NCBI RefSeq assembly: GCF_003852235.1
Contig: NZ_CP027732.1
Span: 3,720,001-3,784,000 of the forward strand
DNA: 64,000 nucleotides
Direction: 5' to 3'
Source: Pseudomonas sp. R4-35-07
Lineage (GTDB): Bacteria > Pseudomonadota > Gammaproteobacteria > Pseudomonadales > Pseudomonadaceae
Below, piece by piece: positions 14,239-39,058 of the stretch. Below the pieces are notes generated by a model. That model was not told where the DNA came from and made no database searches. It saw only the letters and a list, made by a program, of their open reading frames with translations. Numbering within the stretch: position 1 is the first letter of the stretch; every line of letters begins with the position of its first letter. Made by a program: the position numbers and the translations under genes.

Positions 14239-14243
14239 ATCAA

Positions 14244-18364: not shown

Positions 18365-18371
18365 GGGCCGC

Positions 18372-18782: not shown

Positions 18783-18801
18783 CGTTATAGCTCCTTGAAG
18801 T

Positions 18802-19998
18802 TCATATATGGCTGGTGAGGCTCATCAGCGGCAGCATGATCGCGAGCATGATCACCGCGACCAGCACCGCCATGACCACGGTCAGTGTGGGCACCAGTGC
18901 GGCGAGCAATCGGTCGATGCCGCGCTTGGCCTCGACGTCGAAAATATCGGCGACCTTGAGCAGCATGCTGTCCAGTTCACCGGCCTGTTCACCGACCTCG
19001 ATCATTTGCAGCGCCAGTTCGGGCAGCAAGGGTTGGCCGCCAAACGCCTGGCCGAGGCTGCCACCGGCTTTCACCGATTCGGCGGCCATCGCCACCTGCG
19101 CCTGCAGCGCTCGGTTGCTGCAGACCTGCCGGGCAATCACCAGCGCCGGCAGCAGCGCCACGCCATTGCTGAGCAAGGTGCCCAAGGTGCGCGTCAGCCG
19201 CGCCGCTTCGACCCGTTGCAGCAGCGGGCCAAGCACGCGCAGGCCGAGCACGCGGCGATCACAGCGCTCGCGGCGGCGCGGGTCGCGCAGGCCGATGACC
19301 ACCGCCCACAGCAGGGCGATCAACCCGGCCAGCACCAGCAGCCCATAGGCGCCGAGAAACTCGCCGAGCCCCAGGATCACTTCGGTGATCAGTGGGATCG
19401 GCACGCCCAGGTCCTGGAAAATCGGCACGAATTGCGGCACCACGTACGCCAGCAACAGCGCCAGCGAACCCAACACGCCCACCACCAGGAACGCCGGGTA
19501 GATCAGCGCGTTGATCACCTCGCCACGCAGGCGCTGGCTGCGCTCCAGGTAGTCGCTGAGCTGGCGCAGGGTCCGTTCCAACGCGCCGCCCGCCTCACCG
19601 GCGCGCACCATGCTCAGGTACAGCGGCGAGAAGCTGCCGCCCTCCTGTTCCAGCGCGGCCGATAACGGTTGGCCGGCCTTGACCTCATCGCGGATGCGTT
19701 CGATCAAACCGCGCACCTGGGGCGAGCCGGGCTGCTTGAGCAGCAGGCCGAGGCAGCGTTCCAGGGGCTGGCCGGCGCCGAGCAAGGTCGCCAGTTGTTG
19801 CGTGAAGCTGACCAGGCCCGCGCCTTTCAATGCTCCGCGCGCAGGGCTCAATAGCGGCCGGCCCGCTGTTTCGATCTGCAACAGCAGCAGGCCGCGCTTG
19901 TGCAACGCGGCGACGGCAGCGGCCTGGTCCTTGGCCTGCAAGGTGCCGTTGTGGGCGACACCCTGGCTGTCGAGCGCACGAAACTTGAACAGCGTCAC
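18802..19998 (-). CDS. gspF: Type II secretion inner-membrane protein GspF
   Basis: The 398-residue polytopic protein has two T2SSF domains (PF00482), about residues 65-190 and 270-390, each ending in membrane helices, with a third helix between them. It anchors the pseudopilus assembly machinery in the inner membrane. The GTG start at 19998 overlaps the gspE stop as GTGA. Motifs such as RAGEAGGALERTL and EVGEQAGELDSML are duplicated, as expected. Confidence 0.95.
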   Translation of the reverse strand: MTLFKFRALDSQGVAHNGTLQAKDQAAAVAALHKRGLLLLQIETAGRPLLSPARGALKGAGLVSFTQQLATLLGAGQPLERCLGLLLKQPGSPQVRGLIERIRDEVKAGQPLSAALEQEGGSFSPLYLSMVRAGEAGGALERTLRQLSDYLERSQRLRGEVINALIYPAFLVVGVLGSLALLLAYVVPQFVPIFQDLGVPIPLITEVILGLGEFLGAYGLLVLAGLIALLWAVVIGLRDPRRRERCDRRVLGLRVLGPLLQRVEAARLTRTLGTLLSNGVALLPALVIARQVCSNRALQAQVAMAAESVKAGGSLGQAFGGQPLLPELALQMIEVGEQAGELDSMLLKVADIFDVEAKRGIDRLLAALVPTLTVVMAVLVAVIMLAIMLPLMSLTSHI

Positions 19999-21692: not shown

Positions 21693-22324
21693 AATGAAGT
21701 GATATCTGATAGGGCGAAAAGTATGGCTATTTGGAACTACCGAACAATGCCATTAGTTCGCCATAGCCCTGCCGGGAGTTAGCCGGGGGTATCGACTGGA
21801 AGTTATAGCGCTAGTTCCTGTGCGAGGGAAATATAAATACAAAACATTGCTGAATGCACTGATTTAGAGCGTTGGCAGCCAATTGCCACTAGTTGCACAT
21901 AGCCATACGCCTTAATTATTCACGCACTTTCCCTTAAATAACCGGCAAGGAAAAACAGGCAAGCGTTTTACTGCGGCACTACGCGCGAAGGTGTTTCGCC
22001 GGGAAGGAATTTTTACCCCCTCTTTCGTAGCCAATACCGCTTTTTCCCATGGGCGTGCCCACGGAGCTGATCGAACGACTATTTCGGCCTAACGATGCTT
22101 ATAAAACGCTATTAGAGGCATTTAGCCACACCCAGCCCCATTGCAAAAAGCCATCTGATTACAGTCAGTTGGACGTTAAGAAAGCCACGCGCTCATCGCA
22201 AAACTGGCGAAAAAACGCACCAAATGCTGTTAACGCCCTTCCTTTACAGGCGAAGAAGCACGCCTAGACTCTCACTCGATTCAGCTCCCTGGATCATGAC
22301 CAACACTGGAAAAGGATATTCAAA
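21693..22324. promoter_or_regulatory. Divergent intergenic region between gspE and the five-gene unknown cluster
   Basis: This 632-bp region is clearly richer in A+T than either flank and must hold the promoters of both the secretion operon (leftwards) and the unknown cluster (rightwards). No single convincing -35/-10 pair or operator could be fixed by eye. An open frame of 72 codons at 22049-22267 lacks a ribosome site and is not called. A shared regulator is possible but not shown. Confidence 0.4.
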
Positions 22325-22660
22325 ATGAACGCCTTCACTTCGGTAAATACCGTCACCACGCCCCTCACCATCAACTGCAACTCCGTGACCACGTATAACG
22401 GCGATCCCAACGAAACCACCAAGGTCACGTTCAACTACCAGAACAACCTGCTGTGGGCGACCCAAGTCACTAACACTGCCTCAACGCAAATTCTCTCCGC
22501 CGACGCCCCTGCCGGACCGGTGAACCTGCGCGCGGGCGCCAAGGTGACGCTGCAAAACGTCGGCTCGGGGTTCAGCATCCTGTTCACTGGCGTCATCGTC
22601 GACAGCGGTTCCGAGACGCCTTTCACCAGCACCAACATCGGTACATTCAGCCTTTCCTGA
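22325..22660 (+). CDS. Small beta-type protein of unknown function (111 aa)
   Basis: A 111-residue protein with AAGGA 8 bases before its ATG. It is rich in Thr, Asn, Ser and Val, has one Cys and no signal peptide or membrane segment. Alternating hydrophobic and polar residues (TPLTINCNSVTTY, KVTFNYQNNLLWATQVTN, AKVTLQNVGSGFSILFTGVIV) suggest a small beta sandwich. It is the first gene of the cluster and is followed by a hairpin that may lower read-through, so it could be the most abundant product. I do not recognise the family. Confidence 0.72.
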   Translation: MNAFTSVNTVTTPLTINCNSVTTYNGDPNETTKVTFNYQNNLLWATQVTNTASTQILSADAPAGPVNLRAGAKVTLQNVGSGFSILFTGVIVDSGSETPFTSTNIGTFSLS

Positions 22661-22697
22661 TCCATACGGGTTCTTTAGCCAGACCCCATCCTTGAAG

Positions 22698-22724
22698 CCG
22701 GCGGACGCGCACGTACGCCGGTTT
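22698..22724 (+). terminator. Possible intrinsic terminator or attenuator hairpin
   Basis: The inverted pair CCGGCG...CGCCGG with a 12-base loop is followed by TTTCATT. The stem is short and the T-run weak. It lies 38 bases after the small gene and 37 bases before the next gene, where partial termination would separate their expression levels. Confidence 0.4.
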
Positions 22725-22760
22725 CATTAACGCAGTACGGGACATGGACGGTACCCTCGC

Positions 22761-23696
22761 GTGACAAAGCATCGGATGCTTTATACCCGGGTTTGCTGGT
22801 TAACACTGGGCGCGATTCTGGCAACCATCCTGTGGGTAATGGCGACCGGCAGACATGCGCCGACGGCTTTGCCTGACGGGTTCAGCCATACTTTTTCCAG
22901 CGTCGAGTACGCCTCCCTGACCTCGGGCTGCGCCGACCTCGTTCCCGCTCCTTCCGCCTCCTCGGCGACCCCGGCACCCTGCCTGCCTGGGCCGATACTG
23001 CTGCCCGGCATGAACGTCAGCCGTCAGGTGGGTCCGGTGCTGTTCATTCTGGTCGTCGACAGTCGCGAGGCCCGGGTGAACGCCGAACTGTCCATGGGCG
23101 GCGCTGGCCTGACCGGGTTGAGCATGACGGCCGACACACCCACTGCCACCTTTGACCTGGCCAGCGATGGGCAACGCATACGTGGCAGCCTGGGCGCATT
23201 TTTCTGTGCCCCTCCGAACACTTCGCATGTGCTCGCCGACTTCAATATCGAAGGTACGCACGAGGACAACAAGGACAGCGCGCAAGCCTATCGCGGCGAC
23301 CTTATCCGCTGGCAGAGCCCAACCACCAGCGTGATTGCCCAGTACCGCCAACCCTTGTTGCCGGACCTGCAAGTGACCGTGGAACTGCTTGATCCCTACA
23401 AGCCCGACAGCAGCAACGCGTTGACGGCCCAAGTGAGTTTCTACTACGCCACGAACCTGATCGACCGCTACACCGTGATGGCCACCGCCACCCCCGTGAC
23501 CCTGCGCAAATCCAGCGTCGGCCCGGTACATATCCAGGGTGGGGCCTTGTCGTTTCGTCCCGCCACCCAGGAACAGCGGGGGCAGCTCAGCCTCGATGGC
23601 ACTTTCCAGTCTGGCCATAACCTGCCCAACCACTACGCCGGCAGCATCGCCGACTGGTCGTGGATTCGTGGGCGTGCCGACAATTGCAGGGGATAG
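22761..23696 (+). CDS. Membrane-anchored protein of unknown function (311 aa)
   Basis: The GTG at 22761 gives 311 residues. ATG at 22776 is an alternative, and neither has a strong ribosome site. Residues 9-27 (VCWLTLGAILATILWVMA) form one hydrophobic helix after a basic start, so the remainder is probably periplasmic, either anchored or cleaved. A Ser/Pro/Ala-rich stretch with two Cys at about 56-75 is followed by a beta-rich domain to the C terminus. No family is recognised. It is encoded 2 bases before the next gene and so belongs to the same transcript. It is the only member of the cluster with an evident export signal. Confidence 0.75.
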   Translation: MTKHRMLYTRVCWLTLGAILATILWVMATGRHAPTALPDGFSHTFSSVEYASLTSGCADLVPAPSASSATPAPCLPGPILLPGMNVSRQVGPVLFILVVDSREARVNAELSMGGAGLTGLSMTADTPTATFDLASDGQRIRGSLGAFFCAPPNTSHVLADFNIEGTHEDNKDSAQAYRGDLIRWQSPTTSVIAQYRQPLLPDLQVTVELLDPYKPDSSNALTAQVSFYYATNLIDRYTVMATATPVTLRKSSVGPVHIQGGALSFRPATQEQRGQLSLDGTFQSGHNLPNHYAGSIADWSWIRGRADNCRG

Positions 23697-23698
23697 AC

Positions 23699-26600
23699 AT
23701 GACCAGCCGCGCCGCCACCCCGTCCGACTATCAGCAAATTGCCAACAGCGCGGCCTATGCGCTGCCCGATGACAGTGGTTATGGCTGGCGCGGCTACGTG
23801 ATGCCCCAAGGCACCCTACCAGCCGATTTGCCGGCCAGCCTGAGCCCCGCCGATGCGTTCGATAAGCAGGCCGGCCATTACCTGTTCGCCCCCAGCGAGC
23901 CGGTCAGCCTAAGCAGCGACCCGTCGACGTTTGTCACCGCCCTCTATGCCTTTCTTTTTGCCGTCGAGCAGCGCAACTTTGTCGGCAGGGCGCTGCTCTG
24001 GTTGCCGGGCAGCAACCTGCCGGCGCCCAAGAACTTCAACGAATATGGGCTGCGCATCAGCCTGGGGACATCCTGCCAAGTGCAGAACAACCTCAACATA
24101 AAGCTCGGCGACCGCCTGACCTTCTTCATCAACTTCGGCACCTTCGTCAAATACGATGCCGACCTCAACGCGTTACGCCTGAAGTCCAGTACCGGCATCA
24201 GCATGGGCTTCAACGACAAACTGCAGGCAGACAGCGGCCTGCAACTGACTCCCCCACTGCAGCCGTTGGCCTATGTACCGCTGGACGGTAGCCAGGCCGC
24301 AAGCCTGGTGTATGCCTTGACCTACAACCCCGTGGCTGCGCTGCGGTATTTCCAGACCGGCTTTGCCTATGTGGTCAACACCGGGAACGGCAACACCCTA
24401 CTCAACTACCCGGTGTTCAACCCGATCGGCATGCCGGCCACGTTGAACATGGGCGGTGTCCTCGACCCGCTGGACCGGCTGAACCAGCACATCAGTGCGA
24501 CGCAACTGGCCGCCGGGTTGATCCGAACCGGCCTGGCCTTTGCCGCTGCCGGCACCACCTCGCTGCCCAGTCAATGGCGCAGCACTGCCGGCAACCCCAT
24601 CAATCTGGTTCCGCTCAATGGCCTCGATGCCAATGGCTGGCCGCTGCCCCACGCGGCCAGCCTGGTGTTCTGCGATCATGGCGCGAGCTACAGCCTCACC
24701 CTGAGCGGTGACTATGGCTTGAGTGTGCCGACCGTTCCCGCCGCCGTCGGGCAATCGCTGTTGTGCGGCATCTTCGGTACCGAATGGCTGAGCTTTTCCA
24801 ACTACAATCCTGCGGCCAGCCCCACCGAAAATGACCGCATACGCCTGCTCGCCGCTCAATCGGCGTATGCACCCATCTTCCCATTCCCGACCAGCAGCCT
24901 GGTGTCCCCCACCAGCGGCGCGGTCACCGCCCTGCTGACCGGCGATTACCGGACCTCCTGGAGCAGCCTGATTGCCGGCGCCTCTATCCCGGCCTACAGC
25001 GCACAGCCCGACGGCAGCCCGCTTTATGGCCAGGCCGCGGCCGCTGGCGACACCGTGATGCTGGCCCCCGCCGCGCCACGCACACCGCTCCCGCAAACCC
25101 CAGGCTTCGCCTTCCCCCTGGTGCCGTATGCCGGCATGCCCAATACAACGGGCGTCAACCTGACCCAGTTCGAGAGCGAGATTCTTGCGGCCTCGCGCAA
25201 GAGCCTGATCAGCGCCGCCACCCTGCCGGGCAGGCGGGCCGCACGGCTCAAACGCCTGCAACGGGCCCCGGCTGGCGCGGCCGAAAAACCCGATCGAGCG
25301 ACCACACCGCAAGGCTTGCTGGTGGATCTGGACCCGGACGGTATCGGCTACCGCAAAGTGCTGCTGGCACGCTCGAAATCTGCCGAGAGCATGCTGGATT
25401 TTGCCTTCGAACAGCCCACAGAGGCACTGCACGAAGCGCTGCAAACCAATCAGTTATTTCTCGTCGGCGTCAACCCGCAACCGTTTTTCACCCAGGGCGC
25501 AACGTTCAGCAACCACCTGGAGATCGCCGACTGGCACTTCATCGCCAATATCGGTGCCGGCGTGCAAACCACCAGCTACCGCAACGTGCTGATCATGAAA
25601 TATTGCAGTGGCAGCCTGAAAGAGCGCATCGACAATCCCAACCGCTGGACCCTGCCCGAGACGTTCTCGAAAACCGCAGACCTGGTGCCGGGGCTTGAGA
25701 CCCTGGCCTACACCGGTTTGTCCCAGTGGCTGCAGGACTTCATCAGCGCCGCCGAGCTCAAGGCCGCCGCCACACCGGACAGCCTCTATGCGGACTTCGT
25801 CGCCCAGGTCAACGACCCCGAATGGAAAGGCTTTATGGTGCTCAACGCCGACCTGCCCTTGGACAGCCTCCCCGAGCAATTGGCCGGGATCGCCGCCGGC
25901 ATCGATTACAGCCGCTTTCTCGCCCACCACTTCGGCGCCAGCGTCAGTCGCATCAGCCATCAGGACGACACCTTGGATATCCAGGGCATTTCCAACCTCT
26001 TCGGACTGATCGACTATCAGAACCCGGCTTATGAACAGGCCCGGGCCAACGGCGCGGACGCCGACATGCCCATCGCCCTGGCCACGACCGAAGGTTATGC
26101 CTTCAGCGTCCTCCAGCTCCAGGCACTGTTTCGTCAGTCCAGGCTGGTGACCTTCAACAGTCGTATCCAACTGAGCCTGGACCGCCTGTTCGGTTCAGCG
26201 ATCCAGGCCACACGACGCGCCGAAAATCCGAGTGCCGTAAACGCCATGGTCCTCGACGGCAGCGCCCTGCAACAAAACGACACCACCACCTATGTCTTCG
26301 AACAAAGCCAGAGCTACCTGTTCAACCTGGACAGCAACGTGCTACCGGCCGCATCCGTCAATCGCATCCAGTTCAACACCCTGGGCAGCCCGGACAGCGG
26401 CGTCACCACCGCCAGTCGTTTCCTGTTGTGGGGCAAGCTGGATTTCGCCCTGCTCGATACCTCCGCCGGGCCATTCGACCTGTTGTCCTTTGGCAGCGAA
26501 GACGGCAGTCCGCGCAACGAGGGCCTGGCTTATACCAACCTGCAGATCGGCATGAGTTTTCCCAGCGCCACACCCAACGCCGTGAGCTTCAGCTTCAATC

Positions 26601-27274
26601 CCGGCAACCTGGGATTCGATCCGGTCACCAGCCAGGTTCGCGGCAAAAGCCTCTACAAGGGTTTGACCCTGCAGCTCAAGCAATTCATCCAGGCGCCGGA
26701 ACAGAAGAAACCTGCGGATTACGGTTTTCTCCCGGTCCTGCCGGAGAACCTGTCGCTCAAGCCTATGTCCGGAGCCTGGTCGGGCATTGTCTACAAAGTC
26801 ACCATGGGATCGCCCGGCGCCTTGGTCTCGGGCGCTGGTTTCGAGTCCGACCTGTTGGTTGCCTGGTCGCCCGACAGCCAGAGCACCGACGCCAACCCCA
26901 TGCTCTTCGTTGGCTTGAGCCTGCCGGGCGCCGCGCCATCCGCCAGCGTGTTTTCCCTGCAGGGAATCATCAAGGTGTCCACCGGACCGATCAAACTGCT
27001 CTACCAGACCATCCCGGGGCAGCCCGATCCGCAGGCGAAATTCTTCAACCTGCAACTGACCGATATCGGCATCAAGATCCTCGGCATCGCCAAGTTGCCC
27101 CCGGGGGCGACCCTGCAGTTTTTCCTGTTTGGCGACCCTCAGTCCTCCGGCAGCCTGGGCTGGTATGCCGCCTACGTCAAAGATCCGGACAGCGACACCG
27201 AACGCCTGCAGGCCCTGGCGCCGGATACGTCCACGCATCCGACACTGACCGGGCCATCGGAGATCGCCTCATGA
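23699..27274 (+). CDS. Large protein of unknown function (1191 aa)
   Basis: A 1191-residue protein, with GGGGA 6 bases before the ATG at 23699. An upstream in-frame codon at 23660 overlaps the previous gene and is less likely. There is no signal peptide or membrane helix. A short Arg/Lys/Ala-rich stretch near 498-538 (PGRRAARLKRLQRAP) divides the protein and could be a linker or cleavage site. The last 350 residues are beta-rich, with repeated patterns such as GLSLPGAAPSASVFSLQGIIKV. The general style, rich in Leu, Ser, Asp and Gln with few charges, resembles the N-terminal part of the 3470-residue protein. Its stop overlaps the next start as ATGA. Function unknown. Confidence 0.85.
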   Translation: MTSRAATPSDYQQIANSAAYALPDDSGYGWRGYVMPQGTLPADLPASLSPADAFDKQAGHYLFAPSEPVSLSSDPSTFVTALYAFLFAVEQRNFVGRALLWLPGSNLPAPKNFNEYGLRISLGTSCQVQNNLNIKLGDRLTFFINFGTFVKYDADLNALRLKSSTGISMGFNDKLQADSGLQLTPPLQPLAYVPLDGSQAASLVYALTYNPVAALRYFQTGFAYVVNTGNGNTLLNYPVFNPIGMPATLNMGGVLDPLDRLNQHISATQLAAGLIRTGLAFAAAGTTSLPSQWRSTAGNPINLVPLNGLDANGWPLPHAASLVFCDHGASYSLTLSGDYGLSVPTVPAAVGQSLLCGIFGTEWLSFSNYNPAASPTENDRIRLLAAQSAYAPIFPFPTSSLVSPTSGAVTALLTGDYRTSWSSLIAGASIPAYSAQPDGSPLYGQAAAAGDTVMLAPAAPRTPLPQTPGFAFPLVPYAGMPNTTGVNLTQFESEILAASRKSLISAATLPGRRAARLKRLQRAPAGAAEKPDRATTPQGLLVDLDPDGIGYRKVLLARSKSAESMLDFAFEQPTEALHEALQTNQLFLVGVNPQPFFTQGATFSNHLEIADWHFIANIGAGVQTTSYRNVLIMKYCSGSLKERIDNPNRWTLPETFSKTADLVPGLETLAYTGLSQWLQDFISAAELKAAATPDSLYADFVAQVNDPEWKGFMVLNADLPLDSLPEQLAGIAAGIDYSRFLAHHFGASVSRISHQDDTLDIQGISNLFGLIDYQNPAYEQARANGADADMPIALATTEGYAFSVLQLQALFRQSRLVTFNSRIQLSLDRLFGSAIQATRRAENPSAVNAMVLDGSALQQNDTTTYVFEQSQSYLFNLDSNVLPAASVNRIQFNTLGSPDSGVTTASRFLLWGKLDFALLDTSAGPFDLLSFGSEDGSPRNEGLAYTNLQIGMSFPSATPNAVSFSFNPGNLGFDPVTSQVRGKSLYKGLTLQLKQFIQAPEQKKPADYGFLPVLPENLSLKPMSGAWSGIVYKVTMGSPGALVSGAGFESDLLVAWSPDSQSTDANPMLFVGLSLPGAAPSASVFSLQGIIKVSTGPIKLLYQTIPGQPDPQAKFFNLQLTDIGIKILGIAKLPPGATLQFFLFGDPQSSGSLGWYAAYVKDPDSDTERLQALAPDTSTHPTLTGPSEIAS

Positions 27275-28629
27275 CGCGCGTCCTGTACTGGAACATCGAG
27301 AGCTTCGGCTATAACAAGATCCGCCCTTTGAGCACCAAGCGGAACCGCGCCGGGGCGTTTATTCCCGACCTGAACGCTGCCGACCGACTGGCGCTGATCC
27401 TGGCCCATATCACCGCGTTCAACCCGGACATCTTTGTGGTGGTAGAGACCGCCAGTGGCCCGAGCCACGGCCCAGGCTCACTGATTTCGCCAACCGGCGG
27501 CTGGCAAGGTTGCGTGGAGCTGTTGTTGCGCATCCGCAACCTGACCGGCCTTGACTGGAACCTGGTGCCGCCTCTGGTGGTCGGCCAGGCCGGGCGAGCC
27601 GAGGGTGTCGCGGTGTTCTACAAACCGGTGATCCCGGCGGGCCCCGGCGTGGCGGCCGGCAGACGCTTGTTCACCGGCCCCAACGCCTGGTCACCGGCGG
27701 CCAATGGCATCAGCTTCAACCCCACCGTTTTGCCCGCGCCCGCCGCCGGCAACTACCCGCCGCTGCAGACCAACGCTTGTTTTACCGTCGCCGGTCGCGC
27801 TATTCCCCCTACCGCCCTGAACCCCGGCAACCTGTCCGAAAGCCGGTGCGCGGCGCGGGTCGATTTCGTCGATAACCTCGGCGCGCCCCTCAACTATGGC
27901 GGCCTGCGCGAACCCTATATGGTGACGTTCTGTGAAACCGTCGACGGCCCGCCCGTGGTGGTGCAGCGCAACCTCACGCTGTTTGCCATCCATTCGCCCC
28001 CGCAGTACGTGGCGGCCAATGCCTACCTCAACGGTCTGGCCAACGTGCGTGACATCAGCGCCGCCCTGGGCGCGTTGGAAACCCGGGTCATCACCGGTGA
28101 TTTCAATGTCAACCTGCTGAGCCAGACCGGCAATGATCCACTGCGCTACGCCCCGCTCACGGGCCTGGGTTACGCCCTGCAACTGCAGCCACCGGCCGCG
28201 GCCCCGCCTCCAGCCCTGGATGCCTACATGGGCTATTTCGCCACCCACCTCAAGAGCAAGAAATCGACGATCTTCTGGTCGACCAACGTGGGCGCCGTGC
28301 CTTATCCGGGTTACCGCTACATCGGTTCGTCGAGCAGCAGCAACCTGTATTCGATCGACAACATCCTGGTACGTGGCGGCGCGGCCGGGAACTTCACCAT
28401 CGCCAATACCGTGGTCGGCACGCCGCTGAATGTGGTCAACCCCGCGCCTGGCGGTGCGCCCGTGGGCATGGTGGCCATCGCCAGCGATTTCCAGGCGCCT
28501 CCGCTCGGCTGGCCGCCATCACCGGCGCCGGCATTCGCCGCTGGCGACCGGCAACGTTTTCGTGGCTGGCGAAACATGGGGCACATCCGCTCCACCAGCG
28601 ATCACCTGGCCCTGTTCGTGACGGTCTGA
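27271..28629 (+). CDS. Endonuclease/exonuclease/phosphatase (DNase I-like) family protein
   Basis: A 452-residue protein whose start overlaps the previous stop as ATGA. The fold's catalytic landmarks are present in order: N8 in VLYWNIESFG, E59 in FVVVETASG, the AIHSPPQY block, ITGDFNVN near residue 275, and TSDHLALFV near 443. These match the EEP superfamily (PF03372), which cleaves phosphodiesters in DNA, RNA or lipids with Mg2+. No signal peptide is visible. Several Pro/Gly/Ala-rich loops make it longer than typical members (about 300). The substrate is unknown. Encoded between two giant proteins, it may be the enzymatic part of the cluster. Confidence 0.85.
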   Translation: MTRVLYWNIESFGYNKIRPLSTKRNRAGAFIPDLNAADRLALILAHITAFNPDIFVVVETASGPSHGPGSLISPTGGWQGCVELLLRIRNLTGLDWNLVPPLVVGQAGRAEGVAVFYKPVIPAGPGVAAGRRLFTGPNAWSPAANGISFNPTVLPAPAAGNYPPLQTNACFTVAGRAIPPTALNPGNLSESRCAARVDFVDNLGAPLNYGGLREPYMVTFCETVDGPPVVVQRNLTLFAIHSPPQYVAANAYLNGLANVRDISAALGALETRVITGDFNVNLLSQTGNDPLRYAPLTGLGYALQLQPPAAAPPPALDAYMGYFATHLKSKKSTIFWSTNVGAVPYPGYRYIGSSSSSNLYSIDNILVRGGAAGNFTIANTVVGTPLNVVNPAPGGAPVGMVAIASDFQAPPLGWPPSPAPAFAAGDRQRFRGWRNMGHIRSTSDHLALFVTV

Positions 28630-28645
28630 TTCAAGGAGAAGACAG

Positions 28646-31600
28646 ATGGCCAACAATCCACTGAGCAACCTCGCCGCGGCACTGACTCGCGATGCCGGCG
28701 CCCCGATCCTCCTCACCCGTGACTACCTGATCGCAGGCCTGGCGGATGCCGGCGTCAGCGTTTCCGACAATCTGGACAGCGACCTCAATGCGGCCTTCCA
28801 ATCGTCTGTCGCCGGGTTGTCGATCAGCCTGACCGCGCAAAGCGTGCAACCGCTGAACCCGACCAGCCAGACGTTCAAGGTCACGGGCGTCAGTGCGCGG
28901 TTTCTGCAACAGGACGTGCAGCAGGGGCTGGTGCTGACCTTCGGCCTGAGCGGCATCGACGGCGCGCAGGCCCTGAGCCTGGAGATCGTCACCACGCCGG
29001 CCAGTTGGAGCTGGTCCGATCTGTCGAGTTTTGCCACCGGGATTCCCTTCAAGTGGGCCGTGATCAGCAACGCGGTGTTCACCTTCAATGACAATCTGGG
29101 TCCCTGCCAGGGTTTTGCCGCCAACCTGACGCCGCCCGCCCAGCTCAGCAATGCGGTCGCGGTGGTGCAGGGCCTAGGCTTTCCAACCCTGGCCCTGCCC
29201 TTCAGCGGCAGCATGGATTTCGCCAAGGTCGACGGGATCGATATCTTCATGCCGACCACGACCCTGCAGGCGCCTTTCCTCGGCGCGGACAGCGGCCTGA
29301 AACTGTTGTACCTGAGTGTCGATGCGCCGGTTTTCGGGTTGATCATCGGCCCACCGGAACTGCAGGACGGCGACGACCCGGCGCAAGCCTTCTACGACCA
29401 GCAGGTCAGCCTGTATCTGGGCCTCGACCTGAGCCTGACGGACCAGCGCGGTCAATCCATCGACTACCAGATGCGCGCCCTGGCCCAGATCAACAATGGC
29501 AACGCGTTCAATTTCTACCTCGGTCACAGCGACGACGGCAGCGCGCTGTTGACCCCGGCCACGGTCATCGACCTGCTGGACAACAAAGGCAGTTTTTTCA
29601 CGGGAACGCCACCGGTCTTGCAGCAGTTCCTCTCCGGGATCGGCCTGCGCAGCCTCAGCCTCAGCGGCACCACCAGCCCCAGCCTGGCCCTGAGCAGCGC
29701 CAGCGTGACCTTGGGCGCAGACCCGACGGTGATCAATGTCGAGCACCCTTGGGTCCCCTTGCAGGACCCGACCAACCAGTTGGTTTTCGGCGTCACCGAT
29801 TTCGAGTTGGTATGGGGCATCAACTATCTTCCCCAGGGCAGTGCCTATAGTTTTCTGTTCCAGACCCAGTTCCTGTTGTTGCCCGAGGTGTTCAAGGGCA
29901 AGACCACCGGCGAAAACGGCCTGTTCTTCGTCCAATTCAATTCCGACCTCCAGTTGCTTGCACGTTTCGACGGTACCGCCAATCTCAACGACCTGATTGC
30001 CACGCTCACCCTGGGTTTGATCCGCATTCCCAAAAGCTTCGTCGATGCCTCGCTGTCCGACGTAGGCCTGAGCCTTGACGTGGGCGCCAAGAGCTACGCC
30101 TTCAACGCCGGCTTCGAACTGGACCTGAACCTGTTCACGCTCGACGGCCTGCCGATACTCTCGGTCACCGACGGTCAGCTTTATATCAAGGCCACCACCC
30201 CCACCAGTGCCAGCGGTGTCGCCAATACCGCGCCGGTCACCACTTACCAGGCAGGCATCGGCGGACTGGTCGGCATCGGGCCGTATTTCGCCAACGCCAG
30301 CATCGACTATGACGGCACCGAGTCCCCAGCCACCTGGACCGTCGCCGCACGGCTGGCGCAACCGGTGGATGTGCAACAGCTGGTCAGCCAATTCCTCAGC
30401 TTCGGTGGCGCCTTCACATTCCCCGACTTCCTGCCCGGCACCCTGCTGGTCGACACGCTTGAGGTGGACGCCACTCTTGCCACCGGTGCCACGCCGATCG
30501 ACCGCTACACCGTCGCCGGTAGCCTGCGCTGGACCTTCAACCTGGGCCAGGCCTTCAGCGTCGACACCCTGGCCACCCTGAGCCTGAGCTACGACGCCAG
30601 CAAACCCGCCCAGCAGCAGTACAGTGGCAGCGCCACTACGCTGTGGGATTTCAGCTTCCTCAACGACAGCGTGCTGCTGGGCTATAGCTTTGCGCCCGAC
30701 AATCAGGGCAGCAATGCCCAATTGAGCCTGTCCTGGGAAGGCTTGACGGCGATTTATCAGGTCGACAAGAAAACCCTGACCTTCACCCTGAAAAACTGGA
30801 GCCTGGGGCGTCTGATCCAGAAACTCATGCAGTCCCTGGGCGACCCCTACTTCACGCTCGACTCACCCTGGGACGTGCTCAACCAGGTTTCCCTCGACGG
30901 CCTGTCGCTGGTCATCAGCCTGGAAACCAGCAACGGCAGCACGCCGACCATCGCCGCCAAATACACCCTGGCGAGCAAGATCGACCTGGGCTTCATGAGC
31001 ATCGACGGTCTGGTGTTCGAACGCAAGAAGGTCGACGGCGTCGACAAAATCACCCTGGGCATCGACGGTTCCTCTGTGTTCAAAGGCAACAATCCCGAGG
31101 AACAACAGGACTGGAGCAACCTGCTGGATCCCCAGAAAGGTCAGCCCGTGGACAAGCTGCCTTCGGTTCCGGGCCAAGGTACGGACTATTTCAGCCTACC
31201 GTTGCTGGTACTTGGCCAACGCGTGGCCATCAGTGGCTACGACAGCTTCGCTAATACCAAAGCGGTGATCGACGCCTTGAAAGCGGTGCCTTCAACCACC
31301 GGCTCCAGCAACCCGCTGAACCCTGGCGACAGCGGTACCAAGGGCACGCCGTACTACAACCGCAACAGCGACTGGCTGATCGCCGGGCAACTGTTGCTGC
31401 TCAAGACCGGCAAGGACTGGACCGTCGACCTGATGCTGGTATTCAACGACCCCAACCTCTACGGCCTGCGCCTGGCCCTTGCCGGAGAGAAGGCCAAGGC
31501 GCTGGGTAATCTGGTGCTCGACATCCTCTACAAGAAAATCACCGACGATGTGGGCGTCTACCAGATCGAATGGACCTTTCCCGACAGCATCCGCAACCTG

Positions 31601-34600
31601 AACTTCGGTGCGGTATCGATCGTGCTGCCGGAGATCGGAGTGAAGATCTATACCAATGGCGATTTTTTCATCGACATCGGCTTCCCCTACAATCTCGACT
31701 TCAGCCGCTCGTTCTCGATTAGCGCGATCGTCTACGGCGTGCCAGTGCTGGGTGCCGGTGGTTTCTACCTGGGCAAGCTCTCGTCGGTCACCGCGACCCA
31801 GGTACCGAAGACCACCCAGGGCACTTTCGACCCGGTGATTGTCTTCGGCCTGGGCCTGCAACTGGGCCTGGGCTACAACTTCGTCAAGGGGCCGCTCAAG
31901 GCCGGCTTCGCGCTGACGGTATTCGGCATCCTGGAGGGCACTATCGCCGCTTTTCACGCCTATCGCCCGTCCACCGCGCTGGTCACGGCCAACGGCAGTG
32001 TGCAGGACGACTACTACTTCAAGATCCAGGGCACAGTCGGGGTCATCGGCCTGCTCTACGGCAGCATCGACTTCGCGATTATTTCGGCGGCGGTCAACGT
32101 GCGCATTACCCTGTCGCTTTCGCTGACGTACGAGAGCTACATGTCAATTCCTATCGCGGCCCGAGCCACGGTGGAAGTCAGCGTCAAGGTCAAGATCGAC
32201 CTGGGATTGTTCAGTTTCAGCATCAGCTTTTCATTCCATGCCGACGTCTCGGCGCGCTTTGAGATCAATGCCCTCAACAGCGGCCCGGCTCCCTGGGCCG
32301 AGCCGACCGCGCTGCTGGCTCGCCAGGCTCGGCATCTGCAGCTCGCCGGCCAGCGACGGGCCGTCACACCCAAGGCAATGTCGGTGCCGCGCAGTGCAAC
32401 CAAGCCGGCATTGAACCTGTACGCGACGCCGCAATTCACCGTGATGTGCAACGAAGGCGTGAACAGCTACAGCGGCCAGCAAGGTGCTTTCGTGTTCCTG
32501 TTGACCATGGACGCACCGTCCCCGACTCAACACACACGGCAGGCGGTTGGCTCCAGTAGTTTCGAGCGCTTGTGCGCCGATTACCTGCCGTGGCTGATCG
32601 GCACCCTGGGCTCAGCCAGAAGCGAGCAGGACACCCTGGCCGACATCCTCGGCACGTTGGTGGACAAGGCCCTGCTGGAGGTGGATATCGAACGCCTTGC
32701 CGACCTGGCCAACCCGCCGTTCGGCATCAGCGAGTTGTTGACGTTCCTGTCGTCCTTCGACGTCAGCATCACCTTGCCCGACGCTGCCAACCAGGCGCAG
32801 ATCAAGCAGGTGCTGGAGGCCGGCTCGGTGCTGTTCCCGGTCTTCGACGGCCTGTCCCTGGACGTCCCCCTGGCGAACGCCGGCAGCGCGACCCTGGACT
32901 TTCTCCAGTACGTGGGCACCAACAGCACCTATCGCAGCAACGTCGCGCAGTTATTCAAGGAACTGGCGGCCGTTGTCACGGCCAAGGATGAGCGCAGCGC
33001 GCCGCCGCTGCGCGCTGCAGACGATGCCAACGAATCGATGGCCGCCGTGATTTTTACCGATGCCTTCATGGTCATCGGCCGGCAACTGTTGCAGGTCGCC
33101 CTCAATGCCTTTGACGACTACGCCTATGCCACGGCCAACGGCAACTCCATCGAGCAGATTCTGCAATGGACCAATGAAGCACGTGGCAACAGCCTGACCC
33201 TCGACGATATTGTCCGGCCCAATGCCGAAGTCGCCTTGACCGGTGGGCTGACTCTGAACATCCCTCTGCCCGCCTATACCCTGCAAAGCAGCGACACCCT
33301 GGCAAGCGTCGCACGGGCCTGGTCCGACAGCGCCGTGCCAGCCCGTTGGACGACCACTGCGGCGGGTTTGATCCTGGCCAACGGCAACTCGACGGTGATT
33401 GCCGCCGGTCAACTCATCAGCCTGATGGTGGGCAACGACATTCACCAATACACCACGGGCCCCGGAGAAACGTTCAACAGCCTGGCCAGGGCCCTGGGAA
33501 TCGACCTGCCCGCACTGGCCATGGACAGCGCGCTGTACATCATGGCCGACCTGCTGTTGCCGGGCCAACCGTTGCTGCTGCCGAGCCTGGCGTACCAGAC
33601 CGCCGCCGGCGACAGCCTGAACAGCAGCGGCGCACGCTTTGGCGTGAGTGCCATGGCCCTGTTCAGCGATCCGCTGTCCGGCAACGTCAGTGTCGGGCCG
33701 CTATTTGCCACGCAACAGATCACCCTGACAGCCCTCAATAGCCTCTTTACCCAAGACCTGTGGGCCGTGGTGGTGGGCACCGATCAACTGGCCCAATTGG
33801 CCGGCATGCTTTCGCGCTTTTTGGCCTATGGCCTGCGCCTGCCGTCGAACCCGGCGGGCATGGGCGGCCTGAGCCTCGGCGCGCAATTTCTCTACCCAAA
33901 CAACCAGAGCGCCTATGGTCTCTATCAACTGACCGGCCAGCAGTTCCCCACGCCAACCGACCAGATGCCCGGGACTGACTTCCCCATCAGCCTGAGCCGG
34001 GACGCCAGCAGCCATGGTGTCGACTTGTCGTTCGTAACGATCGCCGGCGGCAGCAGCGGCTCAATGAACCTGAACGAGGCCTACAGCAACCTTTGCGTGG
34101 TGCTGGCCTACGCGCAAAACCGCAAGTTCCAGCCGGCACCGAGCATCAGCCTGCTGCCGACCGTTGCCCGCAGCCCGAAAGACTATGCGGTTAAAAGCAT
34201 CTCCCTGTGGTCGACCGCTGACCTGCAGCAGTTGCGTGACCTCTGCCAGCCGAACCTGCGAGCCTCAACCGAAGAGGCGCCCAGCGTGCAACCGATACTC
34301 TGGTCCCTGCCGGATGGCCTGGTCCGGCTGAGCAACCAGCGGGTGGGCTGTCTCGCCCCGCAACTGCCTGATCTCTCGCAGCAACTGCCCTACCTGCCGG
34401 CCTTCACCCCCTGGGAAGTTTCAACCGACCCCGCGACCCTCGAAACCACGCGCCGCGAAATAGCCTCCTACAGCTACGCGACCCGGGTTGACTTCACCAT
34501 CAAGCGGCTGCCCCAGGCCCAGCCCGGCGTCATTGCCAGCGATGGCAGCAGCCTGGCGTATACCTACCAACTGCTCGGCCCTTCGGCCACCGATGCGCAA

Positions 34601-37600
34601 TTACTGGAGCGCCTGTTGGGCGCGGTGAGCGAGCTGGGTACGTCAATCATCAGCGGCCAGTTCCTGCTGATGCCCCAGGGCAATGCCAAGGCCAGCAACC
34701 TGCTGAGTCAGGCACAGAGCGACTTCCTCGCGTTCCTGACGCAGACCAACCTGTCGACCGAAACCAACCCGCCACCCGACTTGATGACCCCGCGCACAGC
34801 CGACGACGCGGGGCCGCGTGGCATCCTCAATCCTCCCCAGGAAGTGGTAAAACTGCTCTGGGAACTGTCTACCGTCCGTTCGGGCGGCTACTACTTGAGC
34901 TATTACGACGTGATCGCCGCCAGCGGGTTGCCCGATGGGATTTTCGACGACAGTGGCACGGCGACCCTGACCCTGGTAATGACCTATCCACGGGGTGCCC
35001 TGCTAGGCCGCCTGTGCAACTTCATCAATGCCTTTGCCACCACCGATACGGTGATCCAGCAAGGCAGCCACATGGCCCTGCGCTCGGCCAGCACCGCCGG
35101 TGTCAGCCAGCCGACCCGCGCCAGTGACAGCCTGGAAAGCCTGGCGACGTTCTACGGTATAGGCTCCGGCCGCATTGCCGAACTCAATCCGGGCGCGACC
35201 CTGACCACGAACGCACAAGTACCGATAGACGGCATCATTCACTTGGTGACACCGGCCGACTCCAGCGCAGGCAATGGCGTGCCTGCGGCAATCCTCGACA
35301 ATCTGGCCCGCTACTACTCGGTGGGGGCACTGCAACCGGTCAGTGCAGCGCAGATCGCGGCCCTCAACCCCGGCGTCAGCGCCGCCAGCACCGTGGCGCT
35401 GTTCATCCCGGCACTGGTCTATGTTGTTGACGGCAGCCTTGCACCGGGTAACAGCCTGCGGTCCCTGGCCGACTACTACGGACTCGATCTCGATGCACTG
35501 GCGGTCGGCGCCGAGCGGGTAGTCGGGCTGCTGGCCAGCGGCAGTGCGTTGACGCTGAATACCCGGACCTTCGATTTGCAAGCGGTGTTCAACCAAGGCA
35601 ATGCCGCTTTCAGTGTCCTGCGTGACAACCCGCCACCGGTGGATTCCCCGAGCGTGGACCCGGACGGTTATGCCAGTGCCTACCTGTACAACCTTTACTC
35701 GGTGCTGAGTGCAGGCATCGATGGCTCGCCCTGGTACAGCGCCAGCGACCTGGCCCTGCCCTTCGGGCCACAGCGGCCGGACATTGGGGCGGATGAACTT
35801 GAGGCGCAAATCCATCGTCGAGCCATGCGCAACCCGCAGAGCCGACGCGAGGCCCTCAACGCTCTGGCCGAGGACAGCCAGTACTTCTATCAGCAAACCC
35901 TCGGCCTGGCCCGCCGCGCCACCAGCAATGCCGCCCCGCAGCCGGTGGACCCAGGCCTGCCGTCCGCCTCCGACAACCCCTATCGAGGTGTGGGCAGCTT
36001 CGCCCAGGTGAACCTCTCCTGGCTGGACATCTTTGGCAACATCACCGTGACGCCCTTCCAGCAGCCGCCGCCCGGCTACAGTGGCAGCCTCAACCATCCT
36101 CCGCTGCCGTTGCGCTACAACGATCGCCTGATCGCCCTGTCGGCCTGGCCCAACACCCGCGCCTTCTACACCTATGAAGCCGCTGCCGGCGGCGTGCAAC
36201 TGGTTATCCACCTGAGCCTCGACACCTCCAGCTACGACCCGGCCGGCGGCGGCGACATCAAGGTCCAGGCCGGTAAGGATCTGGAGATGTTCAACCTGAT
36301 CTACTACCAACTGAACCAGACCTACCAGGACTTGAACCTGCCCTGGTGCAACGGCCGCGCGGTCAGCGTGGAACTGGTCAACAGCCTGTTCGCCCAGCCG
36401 CTGAGCCAGCTTGACATCAGCCAGTCGCAGCCGTTGCTGGACTACATCAACGGGGTGATTCTGTACCTCGGGCAATTGACCCAGGGCGCCGCTGCAGCAC
36501 CACCCGCTACCGTGCGCCTGTGCCTGGCAGTGGATATCGATAACCTCGCGCCCGGCTCGATCCTGCCCCTGAGCCTGACCCTCAGCCTGCGGCGGGTCTC
36601 GACCCTGGTGGCGCCGGATGTCGCCGGCCTGGCAGGCGGCGTGGCGGTGACCAGTACGCTGCTGCCGGTTCCCGATCCAGTGACCGCCAGCACCAGTGGA
36701 TATAGCGTGTTCGCCGCAGCCTTCGAGGCGCTGTTCCTGCGCCCCGGCGCCTGGCTGACACGGGTCGGCAGCGGCACCGCAGACCCCGGCAGCACGCCGG
36801 ACGGACGCAGCCAGACGCTATGGGCCGTCCGTTTCGCCGAGCAGGACGGCGCGGCAGGTATTCGCTACCGCATCGATCCGGTCCCAGGCTACTTCGCAGC
36901 CCGGCCGATCGCTAACAGCCTGACCTCCGACAGCGTGCAGATCTACCCCACCTACCGGCCGGACCAGCCGTTCCCTGGCGATGACCTGGCGACACTCAAC
37001 CTCACGGGCGTCGATCAGAACCTCTGGTTCGAAACCGCCCTCAAGGCCATCGACGGCTTCCTGTCACCCACCTATGCCCCCTCGGTGTTCCTGCTCGACA
37101 CCCTGCTGGGCAGCAAGGACCCGCTCAAGGACGGTTATCTCGGCAAAATCCTCAGCGCCAAACAGGTGCTGGCTGACGATATCGCGTCCACCCTGGAACC
37201 GGTGCTATCGGCAGGTCCGCAAGACGGGGCAACCCGGGCCGCAGCGGCTGAAAAACTGCGCCAGGCCCTGCTCAACCAGCTGTACTCGGCCTACAGCACC
37301 ACCGCTATCGTCGGCTTCTGCGTGCAAGGCAGCGCGACCGACCAAACGTTGTCGCTGTACGGCCAGCCGACCGTTTCGGGTTCCAGTCAGTCAACGCCCG
37401 GCACAGGGAACGACAACTACGCCTTCGGCAGCGGCCGCATTCGCTTGCAGGCTTCGGTTGGCGAAAGCGCCCTTGCGTTTGTGTTCAATTCCCGCAACGA
37501 GGCAGCAAGGAGCTATGTACCACTGGAACTGGCGTTGCAGGTCAGTCACCTGGAACACGACATGCGCAGCGTCCCGGGGATCAGCGGCTACACCCAGTCG

Positions 37601-39058
37601 AACTGGATCTCATTGATCAGCGGGCCATTGCTGATCCCCTTGGCCGGAGGGCAGACCATGAACCTGCCGGTGCTGCTGCGATCCTTGCCTGAACCACCGA
37701 CGGTCCAGCGCCAGACGGCGACAGCCTGGGCACAGCCGGCGCAAAGTGCTTCGGACCTGAGCAAGTGGACTTATGCCTTTGACTCCCTGGTCCGGGGTGC
37801 CGCCCAGGACAGCCTCAACGTCGCCATAGCCCTGAACACCCCGACAACCAACGGCGCGTTGCGCAGCACCGGTAAAAGCCTGGTCGCGGCATTGGCCCAG
37901 TTCGTCACTGTTTACCCGAGCATCGAAGTGGCCATGCAGCAGAACCTCACCGGGATCAATGTCAGCCAGCCGACCGAAGTGCAAATCGCTGCGGCCCAGC
38001 ATGCAGTGGCGGCCTTCGTGTACATCGTCCAGGAGGTCACCGATGCCTACCATGCCTGGGCCAGTCCGATCCGCAGTAAAACCGCGTTTGTGCCCCCCCA
38101 AGCCCTGACCTGCGCCTTCAGCCAGGTGCTCACTTGGGTGATGGTCGACGGGCAAGAGGCGGCCCAGACCCTGCTGCTGGACATGACCATCAACGATGTG
38201 GCGGCCAGCTACGATCCAGGTACCGGCCGAATCAGCGCCACCCTGGCGCAATGGGGCGAGGTCAGCCTGCCGGCGCCACGGGTGGAAATAGATCCGACGC
38301 AGTACGAGGCGGTGAATGTCATCGATCCGGACATCCCCGGGGCGGTCGCCTACCGTTATCGCCTCAAGAATGTGGTACCGGCAGAATGGCTCGATTATGC
38401 GCAAGCGCTGCTGGTCAACGAGCGCTGTACCAGCCTGCCGGCCCTCAACGTGTTCGATCATCAGGACGCGTGGGCTTCGCTGTCGGTGGAGCGCAACCGC
38501 ATCCTGTTCCCCGCCGCGCAGATCGGCACCTTGCACACCAACCCGCTGTTCCGCTTCTCCACACCGGTCGTGCGTTTTGTCGACAGCATCAGCCCCCACA
38601 TCATCCAGGACAGCTTTTCCCTGGACAGCCTGCCAGTGGCGAAGGCGAGTCTGGAGGATTACTTGAATGTGTTTTTTGCCGCCCTGGGTTCAGGCAGCAA
38701 CGGCACTACGGTCCAGGTGGGCATGGAGGGGCGCTACAGCTACGACATCGCCGGGCAGGGAGTCGTCGCGCGCACCGTGCTGCCGGCCGCGCTGATGTTG
38801 CCGGTGAGCACTTCGCTGAATACCCCGCCCGCCTTCATCAGCACATTCAGCCAGGCCATCGATCGCTGGCGCCTGGCCGAAAAAGCCACGGTCCAGGGCA
38901 ACGCCCGGATCGACCTGACCCTGCGCGCATTCAGCGCCGACGATCCGGCCCAACTGGCCCAGGGAGCATTGCCCTCAGACAACCAGCCGCCGTTGCTGAG
39001 CATCGAAAATCTTTGGATATCGGCCAACAAGGTTCCCCCGGAACAAGGAGGTCTATGA
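28646..39058 (+). CDS. Giant protein of unknown function with degenerate LysM-like repeats (3470 aa)
   Basis: An unbroken 10.4-kb frame with AAGGAG 6 bases before its ATG. Residues 1-1205 are beta-rich with long amphipathic strands (about 1065-1200) but no signal peptide or clear membrane helix. An Ala/Arg/Pro-rich linker follows at about 1210-1255. Three LysM-like segments start near 1544, 1602 and 1650 (SDTLASVARAW, GETFNSLARALGI, GDSLNSSGARFGV) and three near 2158, 2212 and 2268 (SDSLESLATFYGI, LDNLARYYSV, GNSLRSLADYYGL). The C-terminal 1000 residues are mixed alpha/beta. LysM modules usually bind peptidoglycan or chitin. These are diverged, so that role is only a suggestion. It is last in the cluster. 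Confidence 0.88.
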   Translation: MANNPLSNLAAALTRDAGAPILLTRDYLIAGLADAGVSVSDNLDSDLNAAFQSSVAGLSISLTAQSVQPLNPTSQTFKVTGVSARFLQQDVQQGLVLTFGLSGIDGAQALSLEIVTTPASWSWSDLSSFATGIPFKWAVISNAVFTFNDNLGPCQGFAANLTPPAQLSNAVAVVQGLGFPTLALPFSGSMDFAKVDGIDIFMPTTTLQAPFLGADSGLKLLYLSVDAPVFGLIIGPPELQDGDDPAQAFYDQQVSLYLGLDLSLTDQRGQSIDYQMRALAQINNGNAFNFYLGHSDDGSALLTPATVIDLLDNKGSFFTGTPPVLQQFLSGIGLRSLSLSGTTSPSLALSSASVTLGADPTVINVEHPWVPLQDPTNQLVFGVTDFELVWGINYLPQGSAYSFLFQTQFLLLPEVFKGKTTGENGLFFVQFNSDLQLLARFDGTANLNDLIATLTLGLIRIPKSFVDASLSDVGLSLDVGAKSYAFNAGFELDLNLFTLDGLPILSVTDGQLYIKATTPTSASGVANTAPVTTYQAGIGGLVGIGPYFANASIDYDGTESPATWTVAARLAQPVDVQQLVSQFLSFGGAFTFPDFLPGTLLVDTLEVDATLATGATPIDRYTVAGSLRWTFNLGQAFSVDTLATLSLSYDASKPAQQQYSGSATTLWDFSFLNDSVLLGYSFAPDNQGSNAQLSLSWEGLTAIYQVDKKTLTFTLKNWSLGRLIQKLMQSLGDPYFTLDSPWDVLNQVSLDGLSLVISLETSNGSTPTIAAKYTLASKIDLGFMSIDGLVFERKKVDGVDKITLGIDGSSVFKGNNPEEQQDWSNLLDPQKGQPVDKLPSVPGQGTDYFSLPLLVLGQRVAISGYDSFANTKAVIDALKAVPSTTGSSNPLNPGDSGTKGTPYYNRNSDWLIAGQLLLLKTGKDWTVDLMLVFNDPNLYGLRLALAGEKAKALGNLVLDILYKKITDDVGVYQIEWTFPDSIRNLNFGAVSIVLPEIGVKIYTNGDFFIDIGFPYNLDFSRSFSISAIVYGVPVLGAGGFYLGKLSSVTATQVPKTTQGTFDPVIVFGLGLQLGLGYNFVKGPLKAGFALTVFGILEGTIAAFHAYRPSTALVTANGSVQDDYYFKIQGTVGVIGLLYGSIDFAIISAAVNVRITLSLSLTYESYMSIPIAARATVEVSVKVKIDLGLFSFSISFSFHADVSARFEINALNSGPAPWAEPTALLARQARHLQLAGQRRAVTPKAMSVPRSATKPALNLYATPQFTVMCNEGVNSYSGQQGAFVFLLTMDAPSPTQHTRQAVGSSSFERLCADYLPWLIGTLGSARSEQDTLADILGTLVDKALLEVDIERLADLANPPFGISELLTFLSSFDVSITLPDAANQAQIKQVLEAGSVLFPVFDGLSLDVPLANAGSATLDFLQYVGTNSTYRSNVAQLFKELAAVVTAKDERSAPPLRAADDANESMAAVIFTDAFMVIGRQLLQVALNAFDDYAYATANGNSIEQILQWTNEARGNSLTLDDIVRPNAEVALTGGLTLNIPLPAYTLQSSDTLASVARAWSDSAVPARWTTTAAGLILANGNSTVIAAGQLISLMVGNDIHQYTTGPGETFNSLARALGIDLPALAMDSALYIMADLLLPGQPLLLPSLAYQTAAGDSLNSSGARFGVSAMALFSDPLSGNVSVGPLFATQQITLTALNSLFTQDLWAVVVGTDQLAQLAGMLSRFLAYGLRLPSNPAGMGGLSLGAQFLYPNNQSAYGLYQLTGQQFPTPTDQMPGTDFPISLSRDASSHGVDLSFVTIAGGSSGSMNLNEAYSNLCVVLAYAQNRKFQPAPSISLLPTVARSPKDYAVKSISLWSTADLQQLRDLCQPNLRASTEEAPSVQPILWSLPDGLVRLSNQRVGCLAPQLPDLSQQLPYLPAFTPWEVSTDPATLETTRREIASYSYATRVDFTIKRLPQAQPGVIASDGSSLAYTYQLLGPSATDAQLLERLLGAVSELGTSIISGQFLLMPQGNAKASNLLSQAQSDFLAFLTQTNLSTETNPPPDLMTPRTADDAGPRGILNPPQEVVKLLWELSTVRSGGYYLSYYDVIAASGLPDGIFDDSGTATLTLVMTYPRGALLGRLCNFINAFATTDTVIQQGSHMALRSASTAGVSQPTRASDSLESLATFYGIGSGRIAELNPGATLTTNAQVPIDGIIHLVTPADSSAGNGVPAAILDNLARYYSVGALQPVSAAQIAALNPGVSAASTVALFIPALVYVVDGSLAPGNSLRSLADYYGLDLDALAVGAERVVGLLASGSALTLNTRTFDLQAVFNQGNAAFSVLRDNPPPVDSPSVDPDGYASAYLYNLYSVLSAGIDGSPWYSASDLALPFGPQRPDIGADELEAQIHRRAMRNPQSRREALNALAEDSQYFYQQTLGLARRATSNAAPQPVDPGLPSASDNPYRGVGSFAQVNLSWLDIFGNITVTPFQQPPPGYSGSLNHPPLPLRYNDRLIALSAWPNTRAFYTYEAAAGGVQLVIHLSLDTSSYDPAGGGDIKVQAGKDLEMFNLIYYQLNQTYQDLNLPWCNGRAVSVELVNSLFAQPLSQLDISQSQPLLDYINGVILYLGQLTQGAAAAPPATVRLCLAVDIDNLAPGSILPLSLTLSLRRVSTLVAPDVAGLAGGVAVTSTLLPVPDPVTASTSGYSVFAAAFEALFLRPGAWLTRVGSGTADPGSTPDGRSQTLWAVRFAEQDGAAGIRYRIDPVPGYFAARPIANSLTSDSVQIYPTYRPDQPFPGDDLATLNLTGVDQNLWFETALKAIDGFLSPTYAPSVFLLDTLLGSKDPLKDGYLGKILSAKQVLADDIASTLEPVLSAGPQDGATRAAAAEKLRQALLNQLYSAYSTTAIVGFCVQGSATDQTLSLYGQPTVSGSSQSTPGTGNDNYAFGSGRIRLQASVGESALAFVFNSRNEAARSYVPLELALQVSHLEHDMRSVPGISGYTQSNWISLISGPLLIPLAGGQTMNLPVLLRSLPEPPTVQRQTATAWAQPAQSASDLSKWTYAFDSLVRGAAQDSLNVAIALNTPTTNGALRSTGKSLVAALAQFVTVYPSIEVAMQQNLTGINVSQPTEVQIAAAQHAVAAFVYIVQEVTDAYHAWASPIRSKTAFVPPQALTCAFSQVLTWVMVDGQEAAQTLLLDMTINDVAASYDPGTGRISATLAQWGEVSLPAPRVEIDPTQYEAVNVIDPDIPGAVAYRYRLKNVVPAEWLDYAQALLVNERCTSLPALNVFDHQDAWASLSVERNRILFPAAQIGTLHTNPLFRFSTPVVRFVDSISPHIIQDSFSLDSLPVAKASLEDYLNVFFAALGSGSNGTTVQVGMEGRYSYDIAGQGVVARTVLPAALMLPVSTSLNTPPAFISTFSQAIDRWRLAEKATVQGNARIDLTLRAFSADDPAQLAQGALPSDNQPPLLSIENLWISANKVPPEQGGL

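Follow-up and report, generated by a model that had tools for sequence, protein, structure and literature searches.

The five-gene cluster and its relatives in Pseudomonas

The region analyzed here, referred to as the window, is a stretch of 64,000 nucleotides of Pseudomonas sp. R4-35-07 (contig NZ_CP027732.1, positions 3,720,001 to 3,784,000, forward strand). At positions 22325–39058 of the window, five open reading frames (ORFs), designated genes A to E, lie on the same (+) strand and encode proteins of 111, 311, 1191, 452 and 3470 amino acids (aa). Gene D encodes a hydrolase of the endonuclease/exonuclease/phosphatase (EEP) type and gene E a giant protein. The spacings A-B, B-C, C-D and D-E are 100, 2, -4 (an ATGA overlap) and 16 bases; the gene positions and the last three spacings given in the initial annotation were confirmed. 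All five genes are under purifying selection, with dN/dS values of 0.16 (A), 0.25 (B), 0.18 (C), 0.15 (D) and 0.18 (E) in comparison with P. protegens FD6.

The order A-B-C-D-E recurred, with 72–87% protein identity, in genome G061, in P. protegens FD6 (L001) and in P. chlororaphis PCL1601 (L002), where the giant is cut off by the contig end and nucleotide homology reaches 36804. Barring one short repeat-like match elsewhere, nucleotide homology to these three loci was confined to 22240/22246–39059/39061 of the window. Judged by this comparison, the cluster is a self-contained cassette, with homology stopping at its edges. The expectation that the five genes move as a unit was borne out by the neighborhoods, the homology edges and the purifying selection. 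Genome G017 holds an A-like gene, C (39%), D (33%), the giant (36%) and a B-type reading frame recognized by eye.

Gene C was matched in 6 of the 298 sampled Pseudomonas genomes, including a remnant in G108 and a truncated C in G196; the giant query matched the remaining four, the window's own genome among them. The remnant in G108 (L021:10157-10834) amounts to about 550 bp and contains, besides the upstream segment and a small piece of C, the N-terminal ~120 residues of B and the C-terminal 36 of the giant. Since it adjoins, as seen by eye, the same 3' flank as the clusters of L001 and G061, the cluster was probably lost in G108. Both cluster ends are retained in the remnant, a visible scar of internal deletion.

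Homology to G061, L001 and L002 starts at 22240–22246, and conservation is high up to the ATG of gene A, also in the G108 remnant. This conserved upstream or leader segment of about 80 bp (22246–22324, + strand) is a candidate for the cluster's own promoter region. Gene A (22325–22660, +) encodes a soluble protein that appears beta-rich by eye, with 79–85% identity in the three related loci and about 29% identity over 76 aa to the product of the 127-aa gene that takes this position in G017. Gene B (22761–23696, +) starts with GTG, and its product shares 27% over 159 aa (E 2.7e-5) with its positional counterpart in Azospirillum lipoferum. A-type and B-type proteins are weakly similar to each other (blastp, best E 0.002). 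The hydropathy scan revealed an N-terminal hydrophobic stretch in B (2.18 at residue 11) and no such signal in C, D or the giant of the window.

Gene C, the giant protein and the hydrolase slot across phyla

When 72,556 plasmid records were searched by tblastn with C and, separately, with residues 1–1666 of the giant, the identical eight records were found by both queries. These belong to Azospirillum (two records), Mycetohabitans and Tistrella (Pseudomonadota), Lysinibacillus and Paenibacillus (Bacillota), Nostoc (Cyanobacteriota) and Embleya (Actinomycetota), and C and the giant adjoin in them with at most one gene between. All 16 loci with both genes (the window, G061, L001, L002, G017, G083, G658, L023–L030 and L043) have C ahead of the giant on the same strand; within this count, the closely related L001 and G061 are not independent. 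Two adjoining ORFs make up the giant in L024, L027, L029 and L043; the ORF between C and the giant in L024 is the giant's N-terminal part and matches the giant of L023 (E 7e-48). In G658, a single ORF of 1731 aa consists of C-like sequence followed by the core of the giant, i.e., a fusion. On the evidence of these neighborhoods, C and the giant are close conserved partners across phyla. The notion of a system whose relatives occur as a group and not singly is supported by this partnership, the shared plasmid records and the fusion.

Evidence against strict pairing comes from 398 genomes of the phylum, in which C matched six and residues 1–1000 of the giant three: G383 (901 aa), G596 and G534 have C-like proteins or fragments and no giant match. 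Proteins without a giant match that resemble parts of C (254–901 aa) lie at L038 (9396-12101), L039 and L040; C contains a domain that may exist alone.

The slot between C and the giant is occupied by an EEP protein in seven of the 16 loci and by a metallo-beta-lactamase (MBL)-type protein in two, is empty in six, and is absorbed by the fusion in G658. EEP proteins fill it in the window, G061, L001, L002, G017, L026 (A. lipoferum) and L028 (Nostoc). The product of gene D (27271–28629, +) matched PF03372 with 25.3 bits, as compared to a curated cut-off of 24.5 (E 1.5e-5); the proteins of L026 (E 2.4e-4) and L028 (E 1.2e-4) scored below the Pfam cut-off. It possesses N8, E59, H241, D277, N279, D363, D444 and H445, which we take to be the EEP catalytic positions. 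Among six aligned EEP proteins, D277, N279, D363, D444 and H445 are kept in all six, N8 and E59 in five and H241 in four, the row of G083 being poorly aligned at its start. The best solved match of the EEP profile was sphingomyelinase C (E 0.0034), short, weak and limited to the GD(F/M)N region, and no single-sequence match of the window EEP to any solved EEP member was obtained.

In L029 (Tistrella), the slot protein matched the PADLOC models RTasMBL, LmuA and PDC-M48B (best E 2.4e-5) and had no Pfam match; that of L030 (Embleya) shares 23% identity with it (E 4e-10). The motifs in these slot proteins are presumably those of the MBL fold. Empty slots were found in G083, L023, L024, L025, L027 and L043. 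Just upstream in G083, an EEP-like protein whose N-terminus includes a hydrophobic stretch matches the Nostoc EEP (blastp E 8e-7), and in L027, a Paenibacillus plasmid, a NAL1-type protein (18514–19494; E 1.1e-7), presumably trypsin-like, overlaps the start of gene C. As far as these loci tell, the slot is swappable between two unrelated hydrolases or empty.

The upstream neighbors vary as well, with laminin-G in L028 (E 1.5e-19), FN3 in L030 (E 1.8e-11) and sub-threshold FN3 in L029. A lipoprotein-like start was noted by eye for the upstream neighbor in G658, and N-terminal hydrophobic stretches are present in the B-type as well as the EEP-like proteins of G083. A 203-aa gene upstream of C and the giant in L043 (4224-4835) has what we presume to be an L,D-transpeptidase-like motif, with no support from Pfam.

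Gene C (23699–27274, +), read from the ATG at 23699, represents a family of which none of 15 members matched Pfam at E ≤ 0.1. Its structure model had a mean pLDDT of 59, with residues ~670–1130 better, and 'Hemagglutinin protein' occurs once among the public names of its homologues. For the giant (gene E; 28646–39058, +), 101 homologues were found among 1810 scored candidates, mostly of ~3400–3600 aa; the 90% cluster of the giant of P. protegens, a species readily handled in the laboratory, has 101 member sequences. LysM (PF01476) was detected in 11 of 13 giants scanned, in the window giant with 25.3 bits versus a cut-off of 20.9 and a best stretch at residues 2161–2183. LysM-like repeats occupy residues ~1540–1700 (33263–33745, +), where a profile of 20 giants matched solved LysM chains (best E 4.4e-10; profile positions, with nearly the same numbering), and a second stretch at residues ~2155–2300 (35108–35545, +), which includes the PF01476 match and further repeats seen by eye. 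No other Pfam family was matched by the window giant, and its conserved core (residues 620–1220) has no family; the most conserved part, residues 847–1200 (31184–32245, +), is predicted by the structure model to form a long-stranded beta barrel or groove. Public names of giants, besides 'hypothetical protein', include several instances of 'LysM (peptidoglycan-binding) domain-containing protein', 'peptidoglycan-binding protein' and, once, 'lytic transglycosylase'. The earlier statement that the large proteins match no nameable family is close to correct, the exception being LysM in the giant.

The adjoining type II secretion operon and a probable island nearby

Divergent to the cluster lies an operon (12115–21692, - strand) in which Pfam identified gspE, F, H, L, M and D plus a sub-threshold match to gspC among the ORFs scanned. 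The gene at 19995–21692 (-) is gspE (PF00437, E 1.9e-140). Orthologues of gspE (E ≤ 1e-200) were present in 73 of the 298 Pseudomonas genomes, and gene C in 6. Both occurred together in only two genomes, that of the window (G000) and G017, as compared to about 1.5 expected by chance according to our own arithmetic, and they are 1.6 Mb apart in G017. The gspE neighborhoods of 7 of the 73 genomes were fetched. In all seven, homology to the window beyond gspE ends between 21686 and 21966, and none of the five cluster proteins is encoded in the 15.5–16.3 kb beyond gspE (tblastn E ≤ 1e-5). Within the DNA compared around each cluster, gspE was not found beside those of G061, G017, L001 or L002. The conserved DNA upstream of the cluster (22246–22324) is separate from that upstream of gspE, which extends no further than 21966 in any of the seven loci. 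Substrates of type II secretion need an N-terminal signal, and the hydropathy scan gave no Sec/Tat-like signal for C, the giant or the EEP protein. From these comparisons, it is apparently by chance that the secretion operon adjoins the cluster. The joint control with the gsp operon suggested by the initial annotation was not upheld by adjacency, co-occurrence, upstream DNA or signals, nor do the five genes stay beside that operon in the fetched neighborhoods.

In L044 and L047, gspE is followed by the tRNA-Pro region that the window has from 55922 on; the DNA between gspE and the tRNA-Pro gene is therefore variable. In the window, this stretch (21820–55930) differs from L044 and L047 and has the appearance of a variable insertion region, here housing the cluster. 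The terminal ~55 bp of the tRNA-Pro(GGG) gene have a copy 11.5 kb away from the gene (44474–44528 and 55929–55987). The segment between gene and copy is low in GC (about 0.50–0.56) and encodes a GIY-YIG-type (T5orf172) protein, a PD-(D/E)XK nuclease and a protein of 1447 aa for which Pfam gave no match at E ≤ 0.01. This segment is likely a tRNA-integrated island.

A proposed scaffold with an exchangeable hydrolase

Several known systems resemble the cluster in part. Tc (ABC-type) toxin complexes likewise combine very large signal-less cytosolic proteins, a variable enzymatic part and a gene order conserved across distant bacteria, and TcdB2-TccC3, compared with regard to the hollow cocoon fold of these toxins, occupied rows 6 and 8 of the giant's Foldseek list, below significance (E 1.9e-3 and 2.7e-3; probability 0.12 and 0.16). 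However, the hydrolase of the cluster is a separate gene and the giant has LysM repeats, and Tc/Rhs/SpvB-type Pfam models were found neither in C or the giant (E ≤ 1) nor in 13 giants (E ≤ 0.01) or 15 C proteins (E ≤ 0.1). Polymorphic toxins and Rhs effectors of type VI secretion share the principle of a conserved carrier with an interchangeable enzymatic activity, whereas the cluster has no Rhs repeats according to Pfam, no recognized immunity gene and no secretion genes inside. LysM proteins binding peptidoglycan or chitin have the repeats in common with the giant, but these are a small part of its 3470 aa. Gene D passes the PF03372 cut-off and keeps the presumed catalytic positions of the EEP superfamily (DNase I, sphingomyelinase C), while differing in that single-sequence matches to solved members are lacking. 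PADLOC and PHROGs gave no match for the five cluster proteins, NCBIfam gave nothing near its cut-offs, and no paper on this system was found, judged by titles or abstract starts. Since no known kind of system accommodated the cluster, we rate it as a new kind, with a function that can be proposed as follows.

We tentatively favor a reading in which the cluster is a mobile, self-contained operon encoding a multi-protein assembly, with a beta-rich, LysM-bearing scaffold that holds an interchangeable hydrolase. C and the giant would build one large beta-structured scaffold, as suggested by the predicted long-stranded sheets, and the LysM repeats may anchor it on polymers of N-acetylglucosamine (peptidoglycan or chitin), whether the producer's own or those of another organism. 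A and B could serve as surface or adaptor modules, a role that FN3, laminin-G or lipoprotein-like neighbors would take elsewhere, and the slot hydrolase would be the cargo or working part, held in place or delivered by the scaffold. We infer that delivery would occur outside the cell. Large toxins folded in the cytoplasm can be released by controlled lysis, as described for Tc toxins (PMC10847048). Since the giants have no Sec-type signal, such release by lysis, or action inside the cell, would be likelier than type II secretion. The swappable slot agrees with the initial suggestion of a toxin, surface or effector assembly, drawn from a hydrolase beside very large LysM-like proteins. A bolder version, to which we give somewhat less credence, is an undescribed class of bacterial machine in at least four phyla, in which the two very large, signal-less, beta-rich proteins would make up a shell or tube bearing LysM, by which a modular hydrolase drawn from unrelated folds is carried, anchored or delivered.

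Lipid handling is a rather unlikely alternative. In this view, lipid would be bound or carried by amphipathic beta-grooves of C and the giant, with a phospholipid or sphingolipid phosphodiesterase in the slot, i.e., a sphingomyelinase C-like EEP or an MBL-fold phospholipase. Several strands of the giant's core alternate strongly between hydrophobic and polar residues (e.g., 1146–1163 and 1170–1185), which others do not, and ApoB100 (E 1.3e-3) and LptD (E 2.2e-3) were among the first ten Foldseek rows for this core. These matches, however, have low probabilities (0.21 and 0.28) and tiny TM-scores, and VIA-align lists porin barrels first. The best solved match of the EEP profile, sphingomyelinase C, agrees with such an enzyme but is of the short and weak kind described above, and the LysM repeats would be left unexplained.

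Slightly less probable again is an intracellular defense system, with the giant/C complex as a cytosolic sensor and the slot hydrolase as a nuclease effector that phage attack would set free. Swappable effectors and a mobile, patchy distribution are typical of defense systems. Genes with defense-like names lie within 20 kb in L026 (SIR2, Cmr) and L025 (nucleotidyltransferase, E2, Mov34/PAD-1), the slot protein of L029 has hits to PADLOC models for MBL proteins, and C, the giant and the EEP protein carry no export signals. Yet none of the five cluster proteins matched a PADLOC model at E ≤ 0.1, and modules such as LysM, laminin-G and FN3 suggest a role outside. Related loci also encode proteins that are hydrophobic at the N-terminus (the EEP-like and B-type proteins of G083 and the lipoprotein-like one of G658).

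It is improbable that the giant is an outer-membrane beta-barrel held to peptidoglycan by LysM, since no signal peptide was seen on it and its homologues extend to Bacillota (Lysinibacillus, Paenibacillus) and Actinomycetota (Embleya), which have no such outer membrane. Least credible is a type II secretion cargo or a joint regulon with the gsp operon: the head-to-head placement in the window is outweighed by its absence from the seven fetched gspE neighborhoods and from the compared DNA around the clusters of G061, G017, L001 and L002, the lack of Sec-like signals and the separate upstream DNA.

Two partners, one of about 1200 residues and the other reaching 3500 or more, are kept together from Pseudomonas to cyanobacteria and Gram-positive bacteria. 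Where a fixed carrier is combined with exchangeable enzymes, the system usually proves to be a weapon, a defense or a delivery device. If the assembly reading is true, the cluster would represent a new kind of large protein device.

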